A stretch of DNA of 64,000 bases from Kiritimatiellia bacterium (GTDB lineage Bacteria > Verrucomicrobiota > Kiritimatiellia > RFP12 > UBA1067). The stretch's first letter is position 1. Each line of letters begins with the position of its first letter. The stretch spans positions 1-64,000 of the forward strand of contig JAFWKK010000076.1 of the NCBI GenBank assembly GCA_017514235.1. The letters are read 5' to 3'. A program made the position numbers and the translations under genes. The notes under the pieces were generated by a model that worked only from the letters and a program-made list of their open reading frames with translations, was not told the origin of the DNA and ran no database searches. This document shows, one piece after another, positions 5,450-35,351 of this stretch.

Positions 5450-7056
5450 GAATAGTAGACTGTGATTATTTCGTGGTCGGGTCCGGCATGGCCGGGCTCA
5501 TGAGCGCGTTGCACCTTGCCGCATACGGCAGGGTGATCGTCGCGACGAAGGGACGCCTGGCCGACTGCAACACGAACTTCGCGCAGGGCGGCATATGCTG
5601 CGTGATGGATCCCGCGGATACGTTCGACAAGCACGCCCGCGACACGATGATCGCCGGGGCGTGGCTCGGCAGGACCGAGGTCGTGCACGAGATATGCGAG
5701 CACGCGCCGGAAGGCATACGCGACCTCATCGACTGCGGCGTGCGCTTCGCCAAGCGCGACGACGGCTCGTGGGACCTGACGCGCGAGGGCGGCCACAGCG
5801 CGCGGCGCATACTGCATGCCGGCGACATCACCGGCGAGAAGTGCGAGGCGGCGATGATCAGGCGGGTGCGGCAGGTCGCGGCGAAGACGAGGCGGACGGG
5901 GCCCGGCATCGACATCCGCGAGCAGACGATCGTGATCGACCTCGTGATGTCGCGGCGCATCGGCCTTGCGGGCGAGAACCGCTGCCTTGGCGCGTACGTG
6001 CTCGACAAGGCGACTGGCGAGATATACGCGGTCCGGGCGCCCGACACCGTGCTGGCGACGGGAGGCTGCGGCAAGGTCTACCTCTACACCTGCAACCCCG
6101 ACACGGCGACGGGCGACGGCGTTGCGCTCGCCTGGCGCGCCGGTGCGAAGATCGAGAACATGGAGTTCATCCAGTTCCACCCGACGTGCCTCTACCACCC
6201 GAAGGCGAAGCGCTTCCTCATTTCGGAGGCGGTGCGCGGCGAGGGCGCCGTGCTGGTGAACAGGCACGGACGCGAGTTCATGCGCAAGTACGATCCGCGC
6301 GGCAGCCTGGCGCCGCGCGACATAGTGGCGCGCTCCATCGACTCCGAGATGAAGCGCACCGGCGACGACTGCGTGTTTCTGGACATCAGGGCGAAGGGCC
6401 GGGCCTACCTGATGAAGCGCTTCCCTAACATCTACCAGAAGTGCATGGAGTTCGGCATCGACATGGCGACGGACCTCATACCGGTCGTTCCCGCCGCGCA
6501 CTACGCCTGCGGCGGAATACAGGCGACGACCGACGGGCGGACGTCGGTGCGCGGCCTCTCCGCCGTCGGCGAGTGCGCATGCACCGGGCTGCACGGCGCG
6601 AACAGGCTCGCCTCCAACTCGCTCATGGAGGCGCTCGTCTGCGCACGGCTCACCGCCGCCCGCCTCGGTCCGCACCCGGAGAAGGGCCGCCGCTACGCAA
6701 TACCGGCATGGAAGACCGGGAACGCCGTCCCGCCGGACGAGGCGGTGCTCGTCGCGCACATGTGGGACGAGATACGCCGCCTGATGTGGGACTACGTCGG
6801 CATCGTGCGCACGAACAAGCGCCTGGCGCGGGCGGCGCGGCGGCTCAAGACGCTGCGCCGGGAGATCCGCGACTACTACTTCAGGTATCTCGTCACGCCC
6901 GACACGCTGGAGCTGCGCAACCTTGCGGTCTGCGCCGAGCTTATCGTGAAGTCGGCGCAGCGGCGCCGCGAGTCGCGCGGGCTGCACTACACGCTTAACT
7001 ATCCACGCATGGCGAAGCGCCCGAAGCAGACGGTGCTGGCCGGATTCAATGGATGA
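5446..7056 (+). CDS. nadB: L-aspartate oxidase
   Basis: 536 residues. Oxidises L-aspartate to iminoaspartate with FAD, the first step of de novo NAD synthesis. The N-terminal dinucleotide-binding motif VVGSGMAGLMSALHLA, NTNFAQGG near residue 41, the FHPT substrate-site motif (about 245) and the C-terminal GANRLASNSLMEALV are diagnostic of the fumarate reductase/NadB flavoprotein family. The C-terminal helical region distinguishes NadB from short fumarate reductases. Eight bases of its end overlap an ABC ATPase gene. No nadA or nadC is visible nearby. Confidence 0.93.
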   Translation: MRIVDCDYFVVGSGMAGLMSALHLAAYGRVIVATKGRLADCNTNFAQGGICCVMDPADTFDKHARDTMIAGAWLGRTEVVHEICEHAPEGIRDLIDCGVRFAKRDDGSWDLTREGGHSARRILHAGDITGEKCEAAMIRRVRQVAAKTRRTGPGIDIREQTIVIDLVMSRRIGLAGENRCLGAYVLDKATGEIYAVRAPDTVLATGGCGKVYLYTCNPDTATGDGVALAWRAGAKIENMEFIQFHPTCLYHPKAKRFLISEAVRGEGAVLVNRHGREFMRKYDPRGSLAPRDIVARSIDSEMKRTGDDCVFLDIRAKGRAYLMKRFPNIYQKCMEFGIDMATDLIPVVPAAHYACGGIQATTDGRTSVRGLSAVGECACTGLHGANRLASNSLMEALVCARLTAARLGPHPEKGRRYAIPAWKTGNAVPPDEAVLVAHMWDEIRRLMWDYVGIVRTNKRLARAARRLKTLRREIRDYYFRYLVTPDTLELRNLAVCAELIVKSAQRRRESRGLHYTLNYPRMAKRPKQTVLAGFNG

Positions 7057-7783
7057 GCTGATAGAGATTCGCGACCTCAGGGTGTGGTTCCCGATCCGCA
7101 AGGGCGTCTTCTCGCGCACGACCGGCTACGTGAAGGCCGTGGACGGCGTGTCGTTCGCCCTGCGGCGCGGCGAGACGCTCGGCGTCGTGGGCGAGTCGGG
7201 CAGCGGCAAGTCGACGCTTGCGCGCGTCATAGCCGGCCTTCAGAAGCCGACCGGCGGCGAGGTCAGGCTGGGCGGGCGCATAGGCATGGTGTTCCAGGAT
7301 CCGCTCGGAAGCCTTAACCCGAGGATGACGGTGCGCTCGACGCTCGACGAGGCGTCGCGGGGCGGCGAAAGCGCGGCGTGGCTCCTTGAGACCGTAGGGC
7401 TGGATGCCTCGGCCCTGGACAAGTATCCGCACGAGTTCTCGGGCGGACAGCGCCAGCGCATCTGCATAGCAAGGGCGATCGCCGTGCGCCCCGACGTGCT
7501 GATATGCGACGAGGCCGTAAGCGCCCTCGACCTGCAGATACGGTCGCAGATACTTGACCTTCTCTCCGACCTGAAGTCGCGGCTGGGGCTGTCGCTCCTG
7601 TTCATCACGCACGACCTCGGCGTTGTGCAGCACATAGCCGACCGCCTTATCGTAATGCACCGTGGAAAGGTGGTTGAGGAAGGAGACTGCGAGCGGGTTC
7701 TCCGGGAGCCTTGCGCAGACTACACGCGCAGCCTCATCGACGCCGTTCCGAGCATAGGCGTTCCGCTTGGCGGCGTCGCGTGA
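7049..7783 (+). CDS. peptide-type ABC transporter ATP-binding protein (DppF/OppF-like)
   Basis: 244 residues. Walker A GESGSGKST, Q-loop VFQDPLGSLNPRM, signature SGGQRQR, Walker B LICDEAVSALD and switch ITHDLG are all present. The VFQDP-SLNPR form is typical of oligopeptide ABC ATPases. The gene overlaps nadB by 8 nt. No permease is adjacent. A peptide-type permease pair lies about 10 kb away at 17434-19643 and has no ATPase beside it, so the two may work together, but that is only a guess. Confidence 0.88.
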   Translation: MDELIEIRDLRVWFPIRKGVFSRTTGYVKAVDGVSFALRRGETLGVVGESGSGKSTLARVIAGLQKPTGGEVRLGGRIGMVFQDPLGSLNPRMTVRSTLDEASRGGESAAWLLETVGLDASALDKYPHEFSGGQRQRICIARAIAVRPDVLICDEAVSALDLQIRSQILDLLSDLKSRLGLSLLFITHDLGVVQHIADRLIVMHRGKVVEEGDCERVLREPCADYTRSLIDAVPSIGVPLGGVA

Positions 7784-24555: not shown

Positions 24556-24858
24556 AGGCCGTCTTGTTTTCAAGGATGTCTTTTTGGAGGTTTCCCATTT
24601 TTTCGGGCATGAAATCAGCCGTACACCTGTGAAACAGCGAGATCACGACATCCGGCGAGCCGATTCCGCTTGAAGCCGGACTGCCATGCCAGGGCTCTAA
24701 GCCGCGCCGCATAGCGCGGCGCTGCGATTTCAGGCCGGTCGGTGTGTTGCGGCGGCGAACGGCGTCCGCGGGGGATTACTGCATTTTCTGCGTAAGGGAA
24801 TGGCTGTGGCTCGGTTTTTGCTTTTGTATGGGACTTTAAAACGAAAAGGAAGAGCGTA
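24556..24858 (+). other. intergenic region with a GC-rich hairpin
   Basis: 303 bases. A minus-strand frame crossing it resembles nothing I recognise. The only clear structure is a 7-bp GC stem (GCCGCGC, 24701-24707; GCGCGGC, 24714-24720). A purine-rich leader ending in AAGGAAGAG precedes the next gene. Confidence 0.4.
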
Positions 24859-25044
24859 ATGAAAGCAAATCAGAATCAAAGAATGGGATATGGCGTGACG
24901 CACACGCTTGAGGAGACGGCTCAGCTGCCGGGCATCACACGCGAGCGGGTACGCCGGACAGAGAGGAGAGCGCTGCAGAAGATAAGGAAGGCCATTGCCG
25001 AGAGGTATGTGATCCACTCGTTCTCGGAAATGACGTGGTCGTGA
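24859..25044 (+). CDS. 61-residue sigma-70 region 4-like protein
   Basis: Residues 14-46 (HTLEETAQLPGITRERVRRT then ERRALQKIRKA) match the helix-turn-helix of sigma-70 region 4.2, whose consensus is TLEEV-X-GVTRERIRQIE-ALRKLR. Nothing corresponding to sigma region 2 or 3 is present. AAGGAAGAG lies just before the ATG. It could be a free-standing -35-binding or RNA-polymerase-binding regulator, or a fragment of an RpoD-type gene. A 15-bp palindrome lies 15 nt after its stop and a tandem-AAA/clpP unit follows. Confidence 0.65.
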   Translation: MKANQNQRMGYGVTHTLEETAQLPGITRERVRRTERRALQKIRKAIAERYVIHSFSEMTWS

Positions 25045-25059
25045 ACAAGTGTTGCGGTT

Positions 25060-25074
25060 TCGGCATGATGCCGA
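25060..25074. promoter_or_regulatory. 15-bp perfect palindrome, candidate operator
   Basis: TCGGCAT-G-ATGCCGA between the sigma-region-4-like gene and the acidic-protein/AAA/clpP unit. No T-run follows, so an operator is at least as likely as a terminator. Confidence 0.4.
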
Positions 25075-25233
25075 CGCATGACGAATGCGAAACGATCATG
25101 GTCAGAATCTGAGTGGCTGATCAAATTATGAGCGACAACGAAAAAAATCATGCTGCAGCGGTAAGAAACGTGCCGGTGGCATTGTTAATGCTAGGTGTTG
25201 GGACTGAACATACAAAGGAAAAGGAGAACCAAA

Positions 25234-25569
25234 ATGAAAGACGATGACGCGATGAGCGCCGATGATTTCTTCGCCGACGAGATATTCGCCGACGAGATGT
25301 TCGGCGACGGTACGAAGGACAAGAGCCCGAGGCGCGCGGGCAGGCGGCGCGCGAAGGAGTCGCAGAAGGACATCCTCGGCGACATCAAGGCCAGGATGGT
25401 GATGCGCATCTACGGCGTCCCGAAGGCGCGTGCGCTTGCCATCATCGCCGGCAGGGCCGGCGAGCGCGAGGCGCTTGGGGCCGCGAAGGGCGGCGGCGAC
25501 CTGCTGGGGGACGAGGAATCCAAGGGCGAGTTCATGTCCGCCGAAGACTTCTTCGGCGTGAGCAAGTGA
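25234..25569 (+). CDS. small acidic protein with duplicated (M)SA(D/E)DFF motif
   Basis: 111 residues, unrecognised. The ATG at 25234 is chosen for AAGGAGA 7 nt upstream. The N-terminus is strongly acidic (MSADDFFADEIFADEMFGDG), the middle is basic then helical (DILGDIKARMVMRIYGVPKA), and the C-terminus repeats MSAEDFFGVSK. The same short motif at both ends suggests a docking peptide. The gene lies 45 nt before the tandem AAA+ ATPase, each with a purine-rich AAGGAG leader, so an adaptor or substrate role for that ATPase is plausible but unproven. Confidence 0.6.
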   Translation: MKDDDAMSADDFFADEIFADEMFGDGTKDKSPRRAGRRRAKESQKDILGDIKARMVMRIYGVPKARALAIIAGRAGEREALGAAKGGGDLLGDEESKGEFMSAEDFFGVSK

Positions 25570-25614
25570 TCTTTAAAGACAACAGCAAAAACAAAAGACA
25601 AGGAGAAAAGACAA

Positions 25615-27798
25615 ATGGCTAAATTCAAGCAGATCCCGCAGACCTTCCTCTACAGGAAGCTTCTGAAGTTCTGGGGGAACATGGTCAAGAACTTCGACGG
25701 CGACTGCCGCGACGACGACTTCTTCGACGTCGTCAGGAACTGCTTCGACCATGACAAGGCGGTCGAGCTCATCGAGGCGGCCTACACCCCGGCCGAGCTG
25801 GCAGAGATGAGCAAGGCGCGCTCCCGCGCATGCCGGCTGGACCTCAGCGAGCCCCTCGACGACGTGTTCAACGCGCTGTGGAACAACGAGGGGTCGCGCG
25901 ACAAGTGCCAGGCCGTCCTCGACGCGGCCCGCGAATACATGGAGGCCGACTGCAAGGGCAGGGGCGACGACGTCGTGTCACGGCGCTTCGGTGAGCTCAA
26001 GCGCGTGCTGAAGCTCGACGACCTCGAGTCCGAGATTCTCGTCTTCGCCTATGTGCGCGACCAGACGTGCTTCAGCTGGCCGATTCGCGTGGAAGACCGC
26101 GAGAAGCCCATGTACTACGCGATGGCGCTCGACCGCTCCTACGACGAGGTGACGCGGGCGATGACCCCGCAGGGCAAGCTGCTGAAGCTCGGCCTCCTGG
26201 ACAACGACTACGACTTCAGCCGCCGCACCCTCGGCGGGTTCATGGACGGCACCTCCAAGGAGACCATCGAGCGGCGCTTCTACGCGAAGAGCGAGGGGAA
26301 GGACGTCCTTCCGTGGGAGTTCTTCGGCGACCTCTCGGCGAAGGACGGGGAGGTCCTGAAGCGCATGGTGGCGGCGAGCGGCGGGAAGTGCAACATACTC
26401 CTCTACGGCGCGCCGGGGACGGGGAAGACGAGCTTCGCCCGCTCTCTCGCCAGGGAGCTCGGGCGTACGGCTTTTGAGATACGCCAGGGCGACGAGGACG
26501 GCAAGAACATGAAGTCCGAGGCCCGCATGGTGGGCATTCAGGTCTGCAACGGGCAGGAGGATCCCGCCACGGGACTGATGATCGTCGACGAGGCGGACGA
26601 GCTGCTGCGCGGGAGCTCCTGCGGCTTCGGGCTGTTCGGCCTCTTCGGGTTCGACACCGGCGGGAAGTCCACGGAGAAGGGGGTGATGAACTCGATCCTC
26701 GACGAGATGAAGCTTCCGGCCGTGTGGATCTCCAACGCCCCGGCGCGCGAGATGGACGAGTCGGTGCGTCGCCGCTTCGACTACTCCATCTGCTTCGAGC
26801 GCCTGAACAGCGCCCAGCGCGTCGCGATCTGGCGCAACCAGGTGACGCGGCACAAGCTCGGCGGCCTGATCCCCGAGGAGAAGGTCGCGGAGTACGCCGT
26901 GAAGTACGAGACTTCTGCGGGCGGCATCTCCACCGTCCTCGAGAACGTGAAGCGCATGGCGCCCGCGCCGGAGAAGGTGGACGAGCTGGTCGCAACCCTC
27001 ATGAAGCCGCACTGCAGGCTCATGGGCGTGAAGGACGCCAACGCGTTCCTCCCCGCGAAGGACTACTCGCTGGACGGCCTGAACATCAAGGGGAAGGTCG
27101 GCCTCGAGCGCGTCGTGAAGGCGGCGCGCAACTACCTCGACGCCGGCTTCTCCGCAGCGGCGGAGGACAGGCCCCGCATGAACGTGCTCCTCTACGGGCC
27201 TCCCGGCACCGGCAAGACCGAGTTCGTGAAGTACCTCGGCAAGACGCTCGACCGCAAGGTGATCGTCATGAAGGGCAGCGACATCCTAAACTGCTATGTC
27301 GGCGAGACCGAGCAGAACATCGCCCGCGCGTTCCGCCGCGCGGAGGCGGAGCACGCCGTCCTCTTCTTCGACGAGGTGGACGGGCTCCTGCAGGACCGCT
27401 CGAACGCCTCCCGCAGCTGGGAGGTGACCCAGGTGAACGAGCTCCTCCAGCAGATGGAGAACTTCGACGGCATCATGGTCGCCGCGACGAACTTCTCGAA
27501 GAACCTCGACCCCGCGACAATGCGCAGGTTCACGTTCAAGCTGGAGTTCGGCTACCTCGACGACGCCGGGAAGAAGTCCTTCTTCGAGCGCATGTTCAAG
27601 ACGACGCTCACGGACGGCGAGTTCGCCGAACTCAGGCAGCTCGGGAACCTCGCGCCGGGCGACTTCCGCACCGTCAGGCAGGGGCAGTTCTACCTCGGCG
27701 ACGCGGTCACTAACCTCGACCGCATCGCGGCCCTGAAGGAGGAGTGCGCGGTCAAGAAGGACGGCGACAGCCACGCGCCCATCGGGTTCGCCGCCTGA
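25615..27798 (+). CDS. tandem AAA+ ATPase ending in Ile-Gly-Phe-Ala-Ala
   Basis: 727 residues. A helical N-terminal region (1-250) precedes AAA module 1, with Walker A GAPGTGKTS at 265, Walker B LMIVDEADELL near 321 and arginine finger RRRFDY. Module 2 has GPPGTGKTE at 528, VLFFDEVDGLL near 581, and ATNFSKNLDPATMRRFTF. Module 1 has a Gly/Phe-rich insertion after its Walker B. The extreme C-terminus is HAPIGFAA. Ile-Gly-Phe is the ClpP-docking tripeptide of ClpX, although there it lies in an internal loop. clpP is the next gene, 45 nt on. The architecture resembles no standard Clp unfoldase and I do not recognise a named family. Confidence 0.8.
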   Translation: MAKFKQIPQTFLYRKLLKFWGNMVKNFDGDCRDDDFFDVVRNCFDHDKAVELIEAAYTPAELAEMSKARSRACRLDLSEPLDDVFNALWNNEGSRDKCQAVLDAAREYMEADCKGRGDDVVSRRFGELKRVLKLDDLESEILVFAYVRDQTCFSWPIRVEDREKPMYYAMALDRSYDEVTRAMTPQGKLLKLGLLDNDYDFSRRTLGGFMDGTSKETIERRFYAKSEGKDVLPWEFFGDLSAKDGEVLKRMVAASGGKCNILLYGAPGTGKTSFARSLARELGRTAFEIRQGDEDGKNMKSEARMVGIQVCNGQEDPATGLMIVDEADELLRGSSCGFGLFGLFGFDTGGKSTEKGVMNSILDEMKLPAVWISNAPAREMDESVRRRFDYSICFERLNSAQRVAIWRNQVTRHKLGGLIPEEKVAEYAVKYETSAGGISTVLENVKRMAPAPEKVDELVATLMKPHCRLMGVKDANAFLPAKDYSLDGLNIKGKVGLERVVKAARNYLDAGFSAAAEDRPRMNVLLYGPPGTGKTEFVKYLGKTLDRKVIVMKGSDILNCYVGETEQNIARAFRRAEAEHAVLFFDEVDGLLQDRSNASRSWEVTQVNELLQQMENFDGIMVAATNFSKNLDPATMRRFTFKLEFGYLDDAGKKSFFERMFKTTLTDGEFAELRQLGNLAPGDFRTVRQGQFYLGDAVTNLDRIAALKEECAVKKDGDSHAPIGFAA

Positions 27799-27843
27799 GA
27801 CATTGAACTACGGAACACACAGAAAACGGTAAGGTAAAGTACA

Positions 27844-28422
27844 ATGAAGGCAAGTCTGATACCAATGGTTGTCGAGAAGTCCGGACAGGGCGAGCGCGCG
27901 TACGACATCTACTCGCGCCTCCTCAAGGACCGCATCGTGTTCGTGGGCGGAGAGATCGAGGACGACATGGCTAACGCCATCATCGCTCAGCTCCTCTTCC
28001 TCCAGTCGCAGGATCCGGAGAAGGAGGTTTCGATGTACATCAACTCGCCGGGTGGCAGCGTAACGGCGGGGCTCGCGATTCTAGACACGATGAAGATGGT
28101 GAAGTGCCCGGTGGCGACGTACTGCGTTGGGCAGGCGTCGTCGATGGGGGCGATCCTGCTGGCGTCCGGCGAGAAGGGTCGGCGCTTCGCCCTCCCACAC
28201 GCGCGCATCATGGTCCACCAGCCGTGGGGCGGCGCGCAGGGCAAGGCGAGCGACATCGAGATCACCGCGCGGGAGATCCTGCGCCTGAAGGAGATGCTCA
28301 ACGGCATCCTCGCCGAGTCTGCCGGCAAGACGATCGAGGCCGTCACCAACGACACCGACCGCGATCACTTCATGTCCGCCGAAGAGGCAAAGGTCTGGGG
28401 GATAGTGGACAAGGTGCTGTGA
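27844..28422 (+). CDS. clpP: ATP-dependent Clp protease proteolytic subunit
   Basis: 192 residues. Starts with the typical [32 protein letters not shown]. The catalytic triad is visible: Ser100 in GQASSMGA, His125 in MVHQPWGG, and the Asp in [12 protein letters not shown]. In other bacteria clpP usually sits next to tig or clpX. Here it follows a tandem AAA+ ATPase and an acidic small protein, and no clpX is seen. The leader lacks a strong ribosome-binding site (GGTAAGG only). Confidence 0.95.
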
Positions 28423-28559: not shown

Positions 28560-29141
28560 ATGAGCGATAACACAGAGACTACGAAGACAGATTATCTCAA
28601 TTGGGATTGCAGATTGGCGGAGGATATTGTTGCCGAGAAAGGAAAGGTCGTAGATCATGATCTGATAATCTTCAAAACAATTGCGGCGATATTGAAAGGT
28701 CTGAATATCAGGCAGGCAGATGGTTCGCCTTATACAAATTGGTGGAATGGTGGGTTTCCTATCAGTCCTTCTAGGATCCTCTGGTTCCCTCATTTGTCAT
28801 TTCGTGCTGGCGGCTGGAATAATGTCCTTTCGGGGGATGGTAAAGTGATTACGGAATCAAGAAACTTTGACGACAAGAAGCAAAGAAAGATTGCAAAGAC
28901 AGATTGGCTTCCTGATGTTGAGAAAATGCGTGAAGGGCAAGCGGTTGAGCGTTGTGTTTTTGCACATGGCAAGAATGCTTTAGGTGAAAGCGGCTATCGC
29001 TTTATGGGTGTGTATAAATTGATTGATACGTCAATTAATCAGGATGACGGGTTGCCAGAAAGGATGATTTTTCAGAAATGTGCTGGTTACATGGATACAT
29101 TGCCCGAGGGAAGTACTTATTACAGGGGTAATGATTTTTGA
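28560..29141 (+). CDS. hypothetical protein, AT-rich, possibly acquired
   Basis: 193 residues, soluble, no signal peptide. Residues 125-180 (ERCVFAHGKNALGESGYRFMGVYKL and ERMIFQKCAGY) have the look of the barrel-like tail found in some nuclease-associated proteins (Arg/Phe-rich YRF-GVY). I cannot assign a family. GC is far below its neighbours, which suggests transfer. AAAGGA lies 9 nt before the ATG. It may share the clpP transcript, or start from its own promoter. Confidence 0.6.
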   Translation: MSDNTETTKTDYLNWDCRLAEDIVAEKGKVVDHDLIIFKTIAAILKGLNIRQADGSPYTNWWNGGFPISPSRILWFPHLSFRAGGWNNVLSGDGKVITESRNFDDKKQRKIAKTDWLPDVEKMREGQAVERCVFAHGKNALGESGYRFMGVYKLIDTSINQDDGLPERMIFQKCAGYMDTLPEGSTYYRGNDF

Positions 29142-30863: not shown

Positions 30864-33800
30864 ATGAAGATGACGAAAACAATTCTTACGATTGCGGTGG
30901 CACTTGCCGCGACGGCGGTGCTGGCAGGCGATTCCGCGTCGTTCCGGCTGGATACTTCAACATCGCCCGTAGGAGATTCGATCTCCATCTCGTGGGATGC
31001 GTCGTGGATTGGCGGAGAAGTGAACGCGACGGTGGTGATCGCCGACAACGGCATGGAAATAAAGCGCACAACGGGTACGGGCGAGTTCACGCATACGTTT
31101 TCAGGCGATAACCGACATGATCTCACCTACACGACCTACATCGGCGGTGTGGAGCAGCCCGAGGTCTATGCGGTCACGGCCTATACGAAATATGAGGTTA
31201 CTTTTGACGCAAATGGCGGAAGTGCTGACGAATCAATCCGTTACGTGACGCCAGGCAACGCGGTCGGCACGCTTCCAACTTCTACGCGGACGGGCTACAC
31301 GTTCAAAGGCTGGTGGACGGATGCGAATGGCGGCACGCAAATCACCGCATTGACGATCGTGTCCGGCCATATGACGTGCTATGCGCATTGGAAGGTGAAC
31401 ACGTACACAGTGACGTTTAACGCTAATGGGGGGACGGGTGGCACAACTTCTGTAACCCGGGATTATGGGCAAACCATCGGCACACTTCCCATGCCTGCGC
31501 GTGCGGGGTGCGCGTTCGCGGGCTGGTGGACGTCTGCGAGCGGCGGGACGCAGATTTCCTCTTCGACGAAGGTGACAAGCAACGTGACTTATTATGTACA
31601 CTGGATGGCGACGGTGATGCTGAACGCAAACGGGGGTACCGTAGATACGGCCACTGTAGTTCGAGAATGTGGTCAAGCTGTCGGCACTCTTCCTACGCCG
31701 ACACATACTGACTACAATACGTTTGCGGGCTGGTGGACGGCGGCAAGCGGCGGGACGCAGATTTCCGCATCGACGATCGTGAGTGGTGATGTGACATACT
31801 ACGCGCGCTGGAAGAACATGTATACGGCGACTTTCAACGCAAACGGTGGGACTGGCGGCATCACTAAGACGCAAGAATATGGGACGAGTCTGACAGCGCC
31901 GACGGTGACAAGAACTGGCTATACCTTCACGGGGTGGTCGCCGTCCGTGCCATCGACGATGCCCGCCGGGAACACGACGTACACGGCGCAGTGGAAGATT
32001 AACCAGTACACGGTGACGTTCGATGCGAACAGTGGGACGGGTGGCAAGAGCGGGAAACAGGATTACGGTTCGGCGATTGTCGCGCCGACGGTGACAAGAG
32101 AATGGTTTAATTTCATGGGCTGGTCGCCGGCGGTTGCGGCGAAAGTTCCGGCGAATGATGTAACATATACGGCGCAGTGGCGGCGGTGGGGCGATTCAAT
32201 TTCCGCTTCGGAGATGGGTGGCAAGACGATGCGCGAGCTCTATCCCGACGACTATGCACACATGACGACGATGGTGCTGGAGGAGGGCATAACGGAACTG
32301 CCAACGGGGTTCTTCGAAAATTGCGACAACGTGGAATTCGTGACGTGGCCTTCGACTCTCGTGGAGTTCGGAATCGACGACCTGCCGCCTAAAATAAAAG
32401 CAACGGTGAAAGGCAAGTATGATGCAAATGGTTTCTTGATCTACAACAACTGGATTCTTGACTACCAGTACCGCGACGCGGCGGCTGTTACGATTCCGAA
32501 TGGGATCGTCGGCGTCGGGCGCGGGGCGTTCGCCGAGATGTTCGACCTTGAGACGGTGACGATGCCGGAGTCGCTCAAGTGCATCGCGAGTGGTGCGTTC
32601 GCGGACTGCTCGTGGATCCAGAACCTGCAGTTCATGTCCGGCCTCAGGCACGTCGGCCCGATGGCGTTCAAGGGCTGCTCGTCCCTGCTGGGGGCATCAT
32701 TCGCCGATGGCGTGGAGCATATCGGCGAAAGCGCGTTCGAAGGCTGCTGGCAGATGAAGTCGGTGCGCCTGCCGTACACAGTCGGCTACATCGGCGCAGG
32801 AGCGTTCTCAGGGTGCAACGCGATCCGCGGCGTTTCCGTGCCCACGCATGTGAAGACGATGCAGACGCTGTTCCCGGCATCCTACTGGCAGATCGAGACG
32901 GCCGAGGTCGCCGAGGGCGAGACGATGGTGATGGACGACATGTTCAAGGGCTGCGTCGCGCTGAGGGGCGGCGCCACGCAGACGGACATGTCGATGATCC
33001 CGAACACCGTTACGAACATCGGCGCGCGGGCGTTCCAGGGCTGCACGTCGCTTACGGCGTTCGTCGTGCGGGACAGCGTGACAGCAATCGGCGAGTCCGT
33101 CTTCCAGGGCTGCTCCTCGCTCTGGAACGTGACGCTCTCGCGGAGCCTGACGGAGATCCCCGACTATGCCTTCTACGGGTGCTCCATGCTGGAGACGATG
33201 GTCGTGCCTGAAAACGTTTCCTATCTTGGCAATCGGTTCTTCAGCGGACGCACCAATCCGATTCAGGGGCAGGTAATAGAGAACGCGCTCTACTACCTCT
33301 GCGCCAACGCGCCGGACTGCCATGCGTCAGCCTACGCGGCGATTGCCGGCAACATGACCACGTACGTGCTGCAGGACTCGCGCAGCTGGGACGGACGGCA
33401 GGGGTCGCGCGTATTGCCGCAGTCGTGGAACGGCTACGACATCACCTACTGGACGCCCCTGCGCTACGACGTGACGTTCGACGCGAACGGCGGGCGGTTC
33501 GACTCGATGGGCGGCTCCACGTGGAGCGAGCAGCAGATTACCGATACGACGTATGCCCTGCCATCTACAGAGCCGGTGCGGCCTGGCTGGGCGTTCGAGG
33601 GGTGGTGGACGGAGCAGACCGGAGGCGCTGAGGTGCGGTACACGACGCTCGTCACGGCCACGCGGACGCATACGATCTACGCCCACTGGCGCTCGCTCGG
33701 GAACAAGATGACGGTCACGTTCAACTCGAACGGCGGTACGGTCGTCGTGCCGGGCACGCAGGACTACGTGCCGGGGCAGACGTTCGGCCAGTTCCCCGCG

Positions 33801-35351
33801 CCGACGCGGCGCGGCTACACGTTCCAGGGGTGGTGGACGGAGGCCGTCAACGGCATCCGCATGACGGAGGCGACGGCGGTGCCGGCGGCGGACATGGAGC
33901 TTTTCGCGCACTGGAAGCCGATTACCTACTACGTGCGCTTCCATGCGAACGGAGGAACGGGCACGATGGCGAACCAGGTGTTCACGTACGATGTGCGGCA
34001 GGCATTGGCTACACATGCGTTTACGCGCACCGGGTTCGCGTTCTCAGGCTGGGCGACGACGCCAAGCGGACAGGTGCGCTATGCCGAGAACGCAACCGTG
34101 GTGAACCTGGAGGAGGTTCAGGATCGCATAGTTGACCTCTATGCCGTCTGGTCTGGCGTCGGCTATTCGGTGCGCTTCGACTCCAACGGTGGAACCGGCA
34201 TCATGGACAACCAGACGATCCGCGTCGGCGAGACCCAGAACCTCTGGCCGTGCGTGTTCGCTCGGGCGGGGTACGTGTTCGCGGGGTGGGCGCTTTCGCC
34301 CACGGACGCGGAGGCGAACAGAGTCGCCTATTTCGACGGCGAGGCGGTGAAGGACCTCGCGACGTCCAACGGCGCAACGGTGCCGCTTTATGCGGTGTGG
34401 GTGGTGCCGGGCCGGACAGTCCGCATCACCTTCAATGCGAACGGCGGCAGCGTGTCGCCCGACTATTGGAACTGCGTGGTCGGCACGGAGGTCGAGTCGT
34501 TCCCGACGCCGACGCGCCCCGGCTTCACTTTCGCGGGCTGGTGGACGGCGGCAAGCGGTGGAACGCAGGTAACGTCCATCGCCAATGTGACGAGCGCCCA
34601 GACGTTCTACGCCCATTGGACGGGGAATGGCGGCGTCGATCCCGGCGATAACTCCTGCACGGTGACGTTCAACGCGAACGGCGGCAGCATGTCGCCTACC
34701 TCCCGGACCGTGGTCTTGGGCACGGCTGTCGGCACGCTTCCCACGCCGACGCGCACCGGCTATGCCTTTGCGGGATGGTGGACGGCTGCGAACGATGGCT
34801 CAAAGGTCGCCTCAAGCACGATCGTAAGGAGCAGCGTGACGTTTTACGCGCATTGGACGGCGGAGGAGCCGAGCCCCGTCGACGAACCGGTAACGACCTA
34901 TACCGTCAAGTTCAACGCCAACGGCGGCAGCGTGTCGCCCACGTCGCGGAAGGTGGCGTCCGGCGAGGCCGTCGGCTCGCTGCCCAAGGCGACGCGCAAG
35001 GGCTACACGCTCAAGGGCTGGTACACGAAGAAGAGCGGCGGGTCGAAGATAAAAACCACGACAAAGGTGACGAAGAGCGTAACGTACTATGCCCGCTGGA
35101 CGGCGAACAAGTACAAGATCAAGTTCGACAAGAACGGCGGCAAGGGCACGATGAAGACGCTTTCCGCGACCTACGGCAAGAGCGTCACGCTCACGTCCAA
35201 CGCATTCAAGAAGTCGAAGTACAAGTTCACGGGCTGGGCTAAGAAGAAGGGCGGCAAGGTGTCATACAAGAACAAGGCGAAGGTGAAGAACCTTACGTCG
35301 AAGAGCGGCAAGACGGTTACGCTCTACGCCGTGTGGAAGAAGGCGAAGTGA
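30864..35351 (+). CDS. giant secreted InlB/Listeria-Bacteroides repeat and BspA-LRR protein
   Basis: 1495 residues with a Sec signal (MKMTKTILTIAVALAATAVLA). A short beta domain is followed by InlB-type repeats (pattern VTFNANGG...GYTFxGWWTxxxGGTxI...VTYYAHW). About residues 438-845 carry BspA-like leucine-rich repeats (FADCSWIQNLQF, FKGCSSL, FQGCTSLTAFVV, FYGCSMLETM). Nine or so further InlB-type repeats complete the chain. The last 120 residues are the same repeat but with Lys replacing most polar residues, ending KTVTLYAVWKKAK. GGAGGTG lies before the ATG. No LPXTG, PEP-CTERM or T9SS signal is evident. Probably a surface adhesin or envelope protein. Long near-identical DNA blocks make internal recombination likely. 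Confidence 0.85.
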   Translation: MKMTKTILTIAVALAATAVLAGDSASFRLDTSTSPVGDSISISWDASWIGGEVNATVVIADNGMEIKRTTGTGEFTHTFSGDNRHDLTYTTYIGGVEQPEVYAVTAYTKYEVTFDANGGSADESIRYVTPGNAVGTLPTSTRTGYTFKGWWTDANGGTQITALTIVSGHMTCYAHWKVNTYTVTFNANGGTGGTTSVTRDYGQTIGTLPMPARAGCAFAGWWTSASGGTQISSSTKVTSNVTYYVHWMATVMLNANGGTVDTATVVRECGQAVGTLPTPTHTDYNTFAGWWTAASGGTQISASTIVSGDVTYYARWKNMYTATFNANGGTGGITKTQEYGTSLTAPTVTRTGYTFTGWSPSVPSTMPAGNTTYTAQWKINQYTVTFDANSGTGGKSGKQDYGSAIVAPTVTREWFNFMGWSPAVAAKVPANDVTYTAQWRRWGDSISASEMGGKTMRELYPDDYAHMTTMVLEEGITELPTGFFENCDNVEFVTWPSTLVEFGIDDLPPKIKATVKGKYDANGFLIYNNWILDYQYRDAAAVTIPNGIVGVGRGAFAEMFDLETVTMPESLKCIASGAFADCSWIQNLQFMSGLRHVGPMAFKGCSSLLGASFADGVEHIGESAFEGCWQMKSVRLPYTVGYIGAGAFSGCNAIRGVSVPTHVKTMQTLFPASYWQIETAEVAEGETMVMDDMFKGCVALRGGATQTDMSMIPNTVTNIGARAFQGCTSLTAFVVRDSVTAIGESVFQGCSSLWNVTLSRSLTEIPDYAFYGCSMLETMVVPENVSYLGNRFFSGRTNPIQGQVIENALYYLCANAPDCHASAYAAIAGNMTTYVLQDSRSWDGRQGSRVLPQSWNGYDITYWTPLRYDVTFDANGGRFDSMGGSTWSEQQITDTTYALPSTEPVRPGWAFEGWWTEQTGGAEVRYTTLVTATRTHTIYAHWRSLGNKMTVTFNSNGGTVVVPGTQDYVPGQTFGQFPAPTRRGYTFQGWWTEAVNGIRMTEATAVPAADMELFAHWKPITYYVRFHANGGTGTMANQVFTYDVRQALATHAFTRTGFAFSGWATTPSGQVRYAENATVVNLEEVQDRIVDLYAVWSGVGYSVRFDSNGGTGIMDNQTIRVGETQNLWPCVFARAGYVFAGWALSPTDAEANRVAYFDGEAVKDLATSNGATVPLYAVWVVPGRTVRITFNANGGSVSPDYWNCVVGTEVESFPTPTRPGFTFAGWWTAASGGTQVTSIANVTSAQTFYAHWTGNGGVDPGDNSCTVTFNANGGSMSPTSRTVVLGTAVGTLPTPTRTGYAFAGWWTAANDGSKVASSTIVRSSVTFYAHWTAEEPSPVDEPVTTYTVKFNANGGSVSPTSRKVASGEAVGSLPKATRKGYTLKGWYTKKSGGSKIKTTTKVTKSVTYYARWTANKYKIKFDKNGGKGTMKTLSATYGKSVTLTSNAFKKSKYKFTGWAKKKGGKVSYKNKAKVKNLTSKSGKTVTLYAVWKKAK

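Follow-up and report, generated by a model that had tools for sequence, protein, structure and literature searches.

A tandem classical-AAA ATPase with a conserved ClpX-type tripeptide at its C-terminus, encoded beside ClpP: a candidate AAA+ protease module in Kiritimatiellia

We describe a four-gene set in a 64,000-nucleotide stretch of a Kiritimatiellia genome (contig JAFWKK010000076.1, positions 1 to 64,000; the whole stretch is hereafter called the window), in which a tandem AAA ATPase ending in Ile-Gly-Phe-Ala-Ala is followed by clpP. The near-terminal tripeptide is conserved across the ATPase family, and it matches the phi-G-(F/L) motif of a functional class, the AAA+ partners of ClpP. 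We think it likely that the ATPase is an unfoldase of the classical AAA type, which uses a proteasome-style C-terminal tail bearing the ClpX motif to dock on ClpP, and that the genes encode a dedicated AAA+ protease expressed through sigma-54. The gene set points to a type of protein-degrading machine that may be new, and that is probably switched on under stress. Clp/HSP100 ATPases are known to feed ClpP via internal loops, and classical AAA rings to feed proteasome-like chambers via C-terminal tails. If our reading is right, docking geometry and docking motif are swappable between these two great AAA+ protease families.

The window belongs to a genome of 3.96 Mb in 82 contigs. The features of the module, with expect values (E) for the Pfam matches, are as follows.

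24807..24822, plus strand: sigma-54-type -24/-12 promoter sequence, TGGCTCGGTTTTTGCT, with one mismatch to TGGCAC-N5-TTGCW; 36 nt before the first module open reading frame
24859..25044, plus strand: sigma-70 region-4-like protein P0004, 61 aa (PF04545, E 1.9e-9)
25234..25569, plus strand: small two-motif protein P0003, 111 aa, with (M)SA(D/E)(D/E)FF at both ends and a core like IKxRMVMRIYGVxxAxAxxII
25615..27798, plus strand: tandem AAA ATPase P0001, 727 aa (PF00004 twice), with an N-terminal region, a first AAA domain (D1) from about residue 259 and a second (D2) from about 522
27781..27789, plus strand: codons of Ile723-Gly724-Phe725, the putative C-terminal docking tail, followed by Ala-Ala; conserved in the alignment
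27844..28422, plus strand: clpP P0002, 192 aa, the genome's second copy and linked to the module (PF00574, E 3.9e-81)

A preliminary description of this DNA had proposed an AAA-ClpP module with a C-terminal Ile-Gly-Phe tail, and its groundwork is sound: all four open reading frames are confirmed at their coordinates, the ATPase does end in PIGFAA (..SHAPIGFAA, with IGF as residues 723-725 of 727), and 45 nt separate the AAA stop from the clpP start. A GTG at 25195 offers P0003 a longer alternative start. The purine-rich leaders of the module genes look like ordinary Shine-Dalgarno sequences.

The mechanism that we propose joins these parts. The four genes would form one operon, probably driven by sigma-54. 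The ATPase would be a two-ring classical-AAA (CDC48/IetA-like) unfoldase, presumably hexameric, whose extreme C-termini would hang by flexible linkers from the underside of the D2 ring. Ile-Gly-Phe would then enter the hydrophobic pockets between ClpP subunits, so that the docking position would be that of proteasomal ATPase tails and the motif that of the internal loops of ClpX, ClpA and ClpC. The Tyr-Val-Gly pore loop of D2 would thread substrate into the module's own ClpP, and the small two-motif protein may deliver substrates or may itself be the regulated substrate.

The C-terminal tail in the phylum and beyond

A genome scan for relatives of the AAA protein gave 113, of which the best 80 represent 79 loci, or 80 with the window. 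Among the closest named records (best 80 of 113), rumen and gut metagenome-assembled genomes labelled Kiritimatiellae, Verrucomicrobia or Lentisphaerae predominate. Seven of the 80 loci lose the AAA C-terminus to a contig end and were left out of the tail count. Every one of the 73 intact family C-termini carries [IVLMF]G[FL] in its last 17 residues: IGF in 56, VGF in 10, MGF in 4, and LGF, FGF and IGL in one each. The preliminary description had named an unconserved tail as an outcome that would undo its proposal, and the count is clearly the opposite.

Conservation within the tail is sharply focused. When the window protein is aligned with 44 relatives at 36-85% identity, Gly724 and Phe725 are invariant (45/45), and position 723 is Ile in 36, Val in 6, Met in 2 and another residue in one. 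The linker at 715-722 is poorly conserved, with no position at which more than 22 of 45 share a residue; Glu710 and Lys714, ahead of this variable linker, are again invariant. A profile search of the phylum found members at E 1e-40 in 64 of 387 genomes, and the tail is present in 39 of the 40 loci taken from it (L149 is without); 14 of these 40, all among L165-L184, repeat the first set, so the added evidence is 25 of 26. As controls, we took 20 AAA proteins outside the family, of which related genomes supplied 19 and the window genome one (656 aa), and saw a phi-G-[FL] tail in none; among 904 other open reading frames of at least 250 aa, a set that includes spurious ones, 49 have it in their last 17 residues.

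These tails resemble what is described for established partners of ClpP. The docking motif of the ClpX loop is (L/I/V)-G-(F/L) (PMC8745299, in excerpt), and the excerpted text of PMC12521514 gives loops or C-terminal tails as the ways in which AAA+ proteins dock on peptidases and reports that AGF docks too in Staphylococcus aureus ClpC; the tail of L153 is AGF. The pockets of ClpP lie between its subunits, and flexible IGF loops step (PMC9035409, in excerpt). That the tail is under selection, with a ClpP-docking motif as its best reading, is well supported.

The family extends outside the phylum. We sampled 20 distant relatives, comprising 18 plasmid records, one gut phage scaffold and one marine IMG/VR contig. 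The tail lies in the last 17 residues of 15 of the 20, a sample in which the plasmid records (18 of 326 matched) were mostly picked for matches reaching the C-terminus, which favours tails, and in which one of 2 phage records was used. Two more have the motif followed by a longer extension, and three (Thiodictyon, Variovorax and Azonexus, the last a match to D2 only) are without it. Several of the 20 lie near WYL-domain regulators or PD-(D/E)XK nucleases, and no ClpP match was found in the stretch around any of them. A viral scan with P0001 as query found no relative; with the query A1 it gave 15 loci, of which L224 alone, the marine contig, is a clear relative. Its AAA protein (6001-7392) is 32% identical and ends in PIGFY, and the 79.7-kb viral record has no ClpP match. 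Among the plasmids, pFW12EY of Methylomonas koyamae (L282) encodes a distant AAA relative with a PIGFV tail that adjoins a gene of the RtcB family, an RNA-repair link further to those described below.

The ATPase domains and known systems

Both ATPase sites are intact throughout the alignment. The Walker A lysines K271 and K534, the Walker B pairs D325/E326 and D586/E587, and the arginine-finger residues R385-R387 and R637/R638 are each present in 45/45. The D2 pore loop is aromatic-Val-Gly, with Tyr in 28, Trp in 15 and Phe in 2 at position 561, Val in 42 at 562, and Gly in all 45 at 563. By profile, the nearest solved structures are a VCP-like ATPase and Cdc48.

The protein falls far short of the curated models for ClpX (NF003745, 39.3 bits vs a cut-off of 359), Cdc48 (TIGR01243, 89.7 vs 802.65) and PAN (NF003069, 76.9 vs 500), and it is also under the cut-off for the curated proteasome ATPase. 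The best named match of its AAA domains is IetA (NF042959, 131.7 bits; PADLOC IetA, E 6e-42). Membership in IetAS was considered and rejected, the NF042959 cut-off being 510.

Each known system shares part of the design. With ClpXP, ClpAP and ClpCP the module has in common an AAA+ ring paired with ClpP, a phi-G-(F/L) docking tripeptide and an aromatic-Val-Gly pore loop. Their tripeptide, however, sits in an internal loop of a Clp/HSP100 ATPase, as it does in the genome's own ClpX, whereas here it is at the C-terminus of a CDC48/IetA-like AAA protein. With proteasomal ATPases and CDC48/VAT it shares classical AAA domains and what looks like a flexible C-terminal tail. In those proteins the C-terminal tails are HbYX and are known to face the peptidase; here the tail is IGF(AA) rather than HbYX, and the partner gene is clpP. 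IetA of the IetAS defence system offers the best-matching AAA domains and likewise an AAA protein paired with a protease gene. The partner in that system, IetS, is a subtilase-type protease; the present module has two AAA domains over 727 aa and ClpP in its place. ClpI of Actinomycetota is an additional unfoldase class, some members having an LGF loop for ClpP (PMC10149685, in excerpt), but it belongs to the Clp/HSP100 family and its loop is internal. Among the titles and abstract starts listed from the open PMC literature we found no description of this AAA family; one may be in print elsewhere.

The linked ClpP and rival explanations

The window ClpP passes the curated model NF001368 (318.4 bits vs 249) and is just under the cut-off of TIGR00493 (308.2 vs 308.6). 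It has Ser100, His125 and Asp174 in the columns of the Ser-His-Asp triad known from the ClpP family. Across a column table of 25 linked and 27 housekeeping rows, which includes three partial or broken rows and two doubled loci, linked rows keep Ser100 in 24/25, His125 in 23/25 and Asp174 in 23/25. The preliminary description had suggested a search for a second clpP with clpX elsewhere in the genome, and there is one: it lies on another contig (C23), beside a ClpX-size AAA-profile match with the internal loop VIGFGG. The same pairing of clpP with a ClpX-size AAA neighbour recurs in 26 of 27 housekeeping clpP loci, L209 having clpP alone. The gene sets are ready test pairs, with housekeeping ClpP as an internal control.

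Linkage of clpP to the AAA gene, within 1.2 kb, is found in 22 of the 80 loci and is undecidable in 29. Where all three genes are present (18 loci), the order is small protein-AAA-ClpP in 10, small protein-ClpP-AAA in 6 and ClpP-small protein-AAA in 2. In a ClpP tree of 49 rows, one clade with support of 100/99 unites 18 linked rows (17 loci), the window ClpP included; it adjoins 12 housekeeping ClpPs from the genus of the window. It fits this placement that the linked ClpP of the window's group may be a duplicate kept for the module. The AAA-linked ClpPs of L110 and L111/L178 (Oligosphaera group) are placed far from this clade, L111 being the AAA-ClpP pair of Oligosphaera ethanolica DSM 24202, a cultured relative. 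The ClpP of L112, whose gene is some 4 kb away from the AAA gene, sits on a long branch of uncertain place. The tree omits the partial or broken ClpPs of L113, L079 and L052, and L062/L198 and L111/L178 are each the same locus twice. In an AAA tree of 66 rows (built by a quick method with support from the Shimodaira-Hasegawa-like approximate likelihood ratio test, SH-aLRT, only, and leaving out L081, L086 and L112 as split) 8 changes of the clpP label are required, of which starred branches force 5 or more, and the label occurs in two separated clades. At 7756-8610 of L052, about the first 86 residues of ClpP run into a sigma-like protein, a broken, fused or chimeric assembly.

The putative docking pocket differs at one of the four positions checked. 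Pocket residues of Chlamydia ClpP2 are Leu49, Phe63, Phe83 and Tyr91 (PMC9823225, in excerpt). Mapped by equal spans with chain 6x60_A at an offset of 2, and with that paper's numbering taken as the chain's, the predicted equivalents in the window ClpP are Leu51, Tyr65, Met85 and Tyr93. Leu51 and Tyr65 are constant in 52/52 ClpP rows, and a single row departs from Tyr93. At position 85, housekeeping rows have Phe or Tyr (27/27) and linked rows Met or Leu (24/25). Such a change would fit a pocket tuned to a new partner; shared descent would explain it equally well.

Several observations weigh against docking on a dedicated ClpP. No clpP lies within 1.2 kb in 29 of the 80 loci despite at least 1.5 kb on both sides, so that the earlier expectation of AAA gene and clpP staying together holds for the 22 near pairs and fails for these; many members would need housekeeping ClpP or another partner. 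Several linked clpPs are not whole open reading frames, being broken (L052), split (L079, L163) or cut at contig ends (L113, L043). A few distant relatives (L149, L273, L275, L284) are without the tail. Moreover, a linear IGF peptide was nearly inactive in an earlier study, as cited in PMC8745299 (in excerpt), and docking would then rest on the avidity of several tails.

Loci without a nearby clpP would be expected if the tail docked mainly on housekeeping ClpP, the linked clpP being a local accessory of some lineages (for mixed rings or dosage). The viral and plasmid relatives, which keep a near-terminal tail in stretches with no ClpP, point the same way, and three of the four checked pocket positions do not differ in housekeeping ClpP. 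We nevertheless consider this explanation unlikely: the linked ClpP of the window's group is a separate clade with a changed position 85, and the genes stay together despite changes of order. A somewhat poorer candidate is that the tail binds not ClpP but a client, the small protein or the ATPase's own ring, clpP being a co-regulated neighbour. In other phyla, relatives with the tail do lie near WYL regulators and PD-(D/E)XK nucleases, with ClpP not found nearby. However, the tails show the same spectrum as Clp docking loops, two separated AAA clades have a linked clpP, and ClpP is available in nearly every related genome (135 of 146, and all 51 of good quality). That common ancestry alone, without selection, has kept the tail is highly improbable. 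All members are indeed related, but the residues at 715-722 are poorly conserved while Gly and Phe are invariant at 36-85% identity, and most of the other-phyla relatives sampled still have the motif. Docking of the tail on the linked ClpP would, as judged from these comparisons of sequence, account best for the gene sets of the window's group.

Promoter, activators and neighbouring genes

Beyond what the preliminary description noted, we found a sigma-54-type promoter, regulators resembling RtcR, sigma-like genes near the module in relatives, and members of the family in other phyla. The 64-kb window has 2 sigma-54-type sites in all on both strands, one of them that at 24807. Such a site lies upstream on the coding strand in 41 of 74 loci, the window included, and on the other strand in 4 of 74, with shuffles averaging 1.1; the count omits the 6 of 80 loci with less than 400 bases of region. 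Sigma-54 itself is encoded in the window genome.

Of 12 sigma-54 activators near the module in relatives that we compared with Pfam, 10 match the model of RtcR. All ten (in L036, L039, L040, L042, L044, L049, L054, L056, L061 and L068) are transcribed away from the AAA gene; the activators of L089 and L099 gave no match to the RtcR model. RtcR has a CARF domain and responds to damaged tRNA, according to excerpts of the literature. RtcR control is likely for some relatives, as their gene neighbourhoods indicate, and may or may not extend to the window. An adjacent RtcR was sought for the window operon and rejected: none lies beside the module, and the single PF06956 match of the genome is on contig C82. 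There it is divergent from two genes that we take to be rtcA and rtcB. The association with sigma-54 and RtcR in some loci suggests that the response is an induced one, with RNA damage as a possible cause.

The small protein P0003 has acidic ends and a basic middle, with MSADDFF near its N-terminus and MSAEDFF near its C-terminus. It has no Pfam or NCBIfam match up to E 0.1, and a hidden Markov model of the small protein finds no other match in the window genome better than E 0.1. By the same model, 34 of the 80 loci have a small protein no more than 2 kb from the AAA gene, and many of these have (M)(S/T)AEEFF-like ends and a core like IKxRMVMRIYGVxxAKAxxII. The preliminary description was thus right to count it in the set; the adaptor role given to it there is a guess, and a substrate or an anti-sigma factor would fit as well. 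Two further ideas were rejected: a known fold, as there is no PDB sequence match up to E 5, and the paired ends as substrate marks on other proteins, as the motif lies within 15 residues of an end in no other open reading frame of the loci up to L238.

In eleven loci a sigma-like gene of about 220 aa, partial in some, lies no further than 2 kb from the AAA gene. Pfam sigma-70 region 2 matched one (an L052 protein) among four such proteins tested, so the name sigma-like rests on weak similarity. The 61-aa region-4 protein is within 2 kb in four loci (the window, L035, L047 and L052), and another relative of it is about 2.2 kb downstream in L038. Elsewhere in the window genome, contig C38 (L245, 2622-4421) has an 85% identical copy of the 61-aa protein together with a sigma-like gene, with no AAA or ClpP match in 7 kb and no sigma-54 site.

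A wider picture, which we offer tentatively and regard as rather more doubtful than probable, would unite these strands. The AAA family might be an overlooked cross-phylum class of ClpP unfoldases, tandem classical-AAA proteins with a proteasome-like tail and the ClpX motif, found in Verrucomicrobiota, Pseudomonadota, Thermodesulfobacteriota, Campylobacterota and phages (phylum names of the distant relatives, beyond those in the records, are our presumptive assignments). In one Kiritimatiellia branch it would have become a module that has a ClpP of its own and is turned on by RtcR-like CARF/sigma-54 activators; there the small protein would be a regulated substrate or an anti-sigma factor of the co-encoded sigma-like proteins.

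Other genes accompany the family. Proteins with WxxLLxxQPQFADKCDW-type repeats occur in the AAA loci L057, L059, L082, L089, L107 and L108, and some adjoin the AAA gene. In the window, 137 nt past clpP, an SRA-domain protein is encoded at 28560-29141 (PF18491, E 2.7e-18; PADLOC type II methyl-directed restriction enzyme model, E 4.7e-14). Further on, at 30864-35351, a 1495-aa open reading frame encodes a surface-protein-like product with many TFNANGG-type repeats, which we take to be InlB-like.

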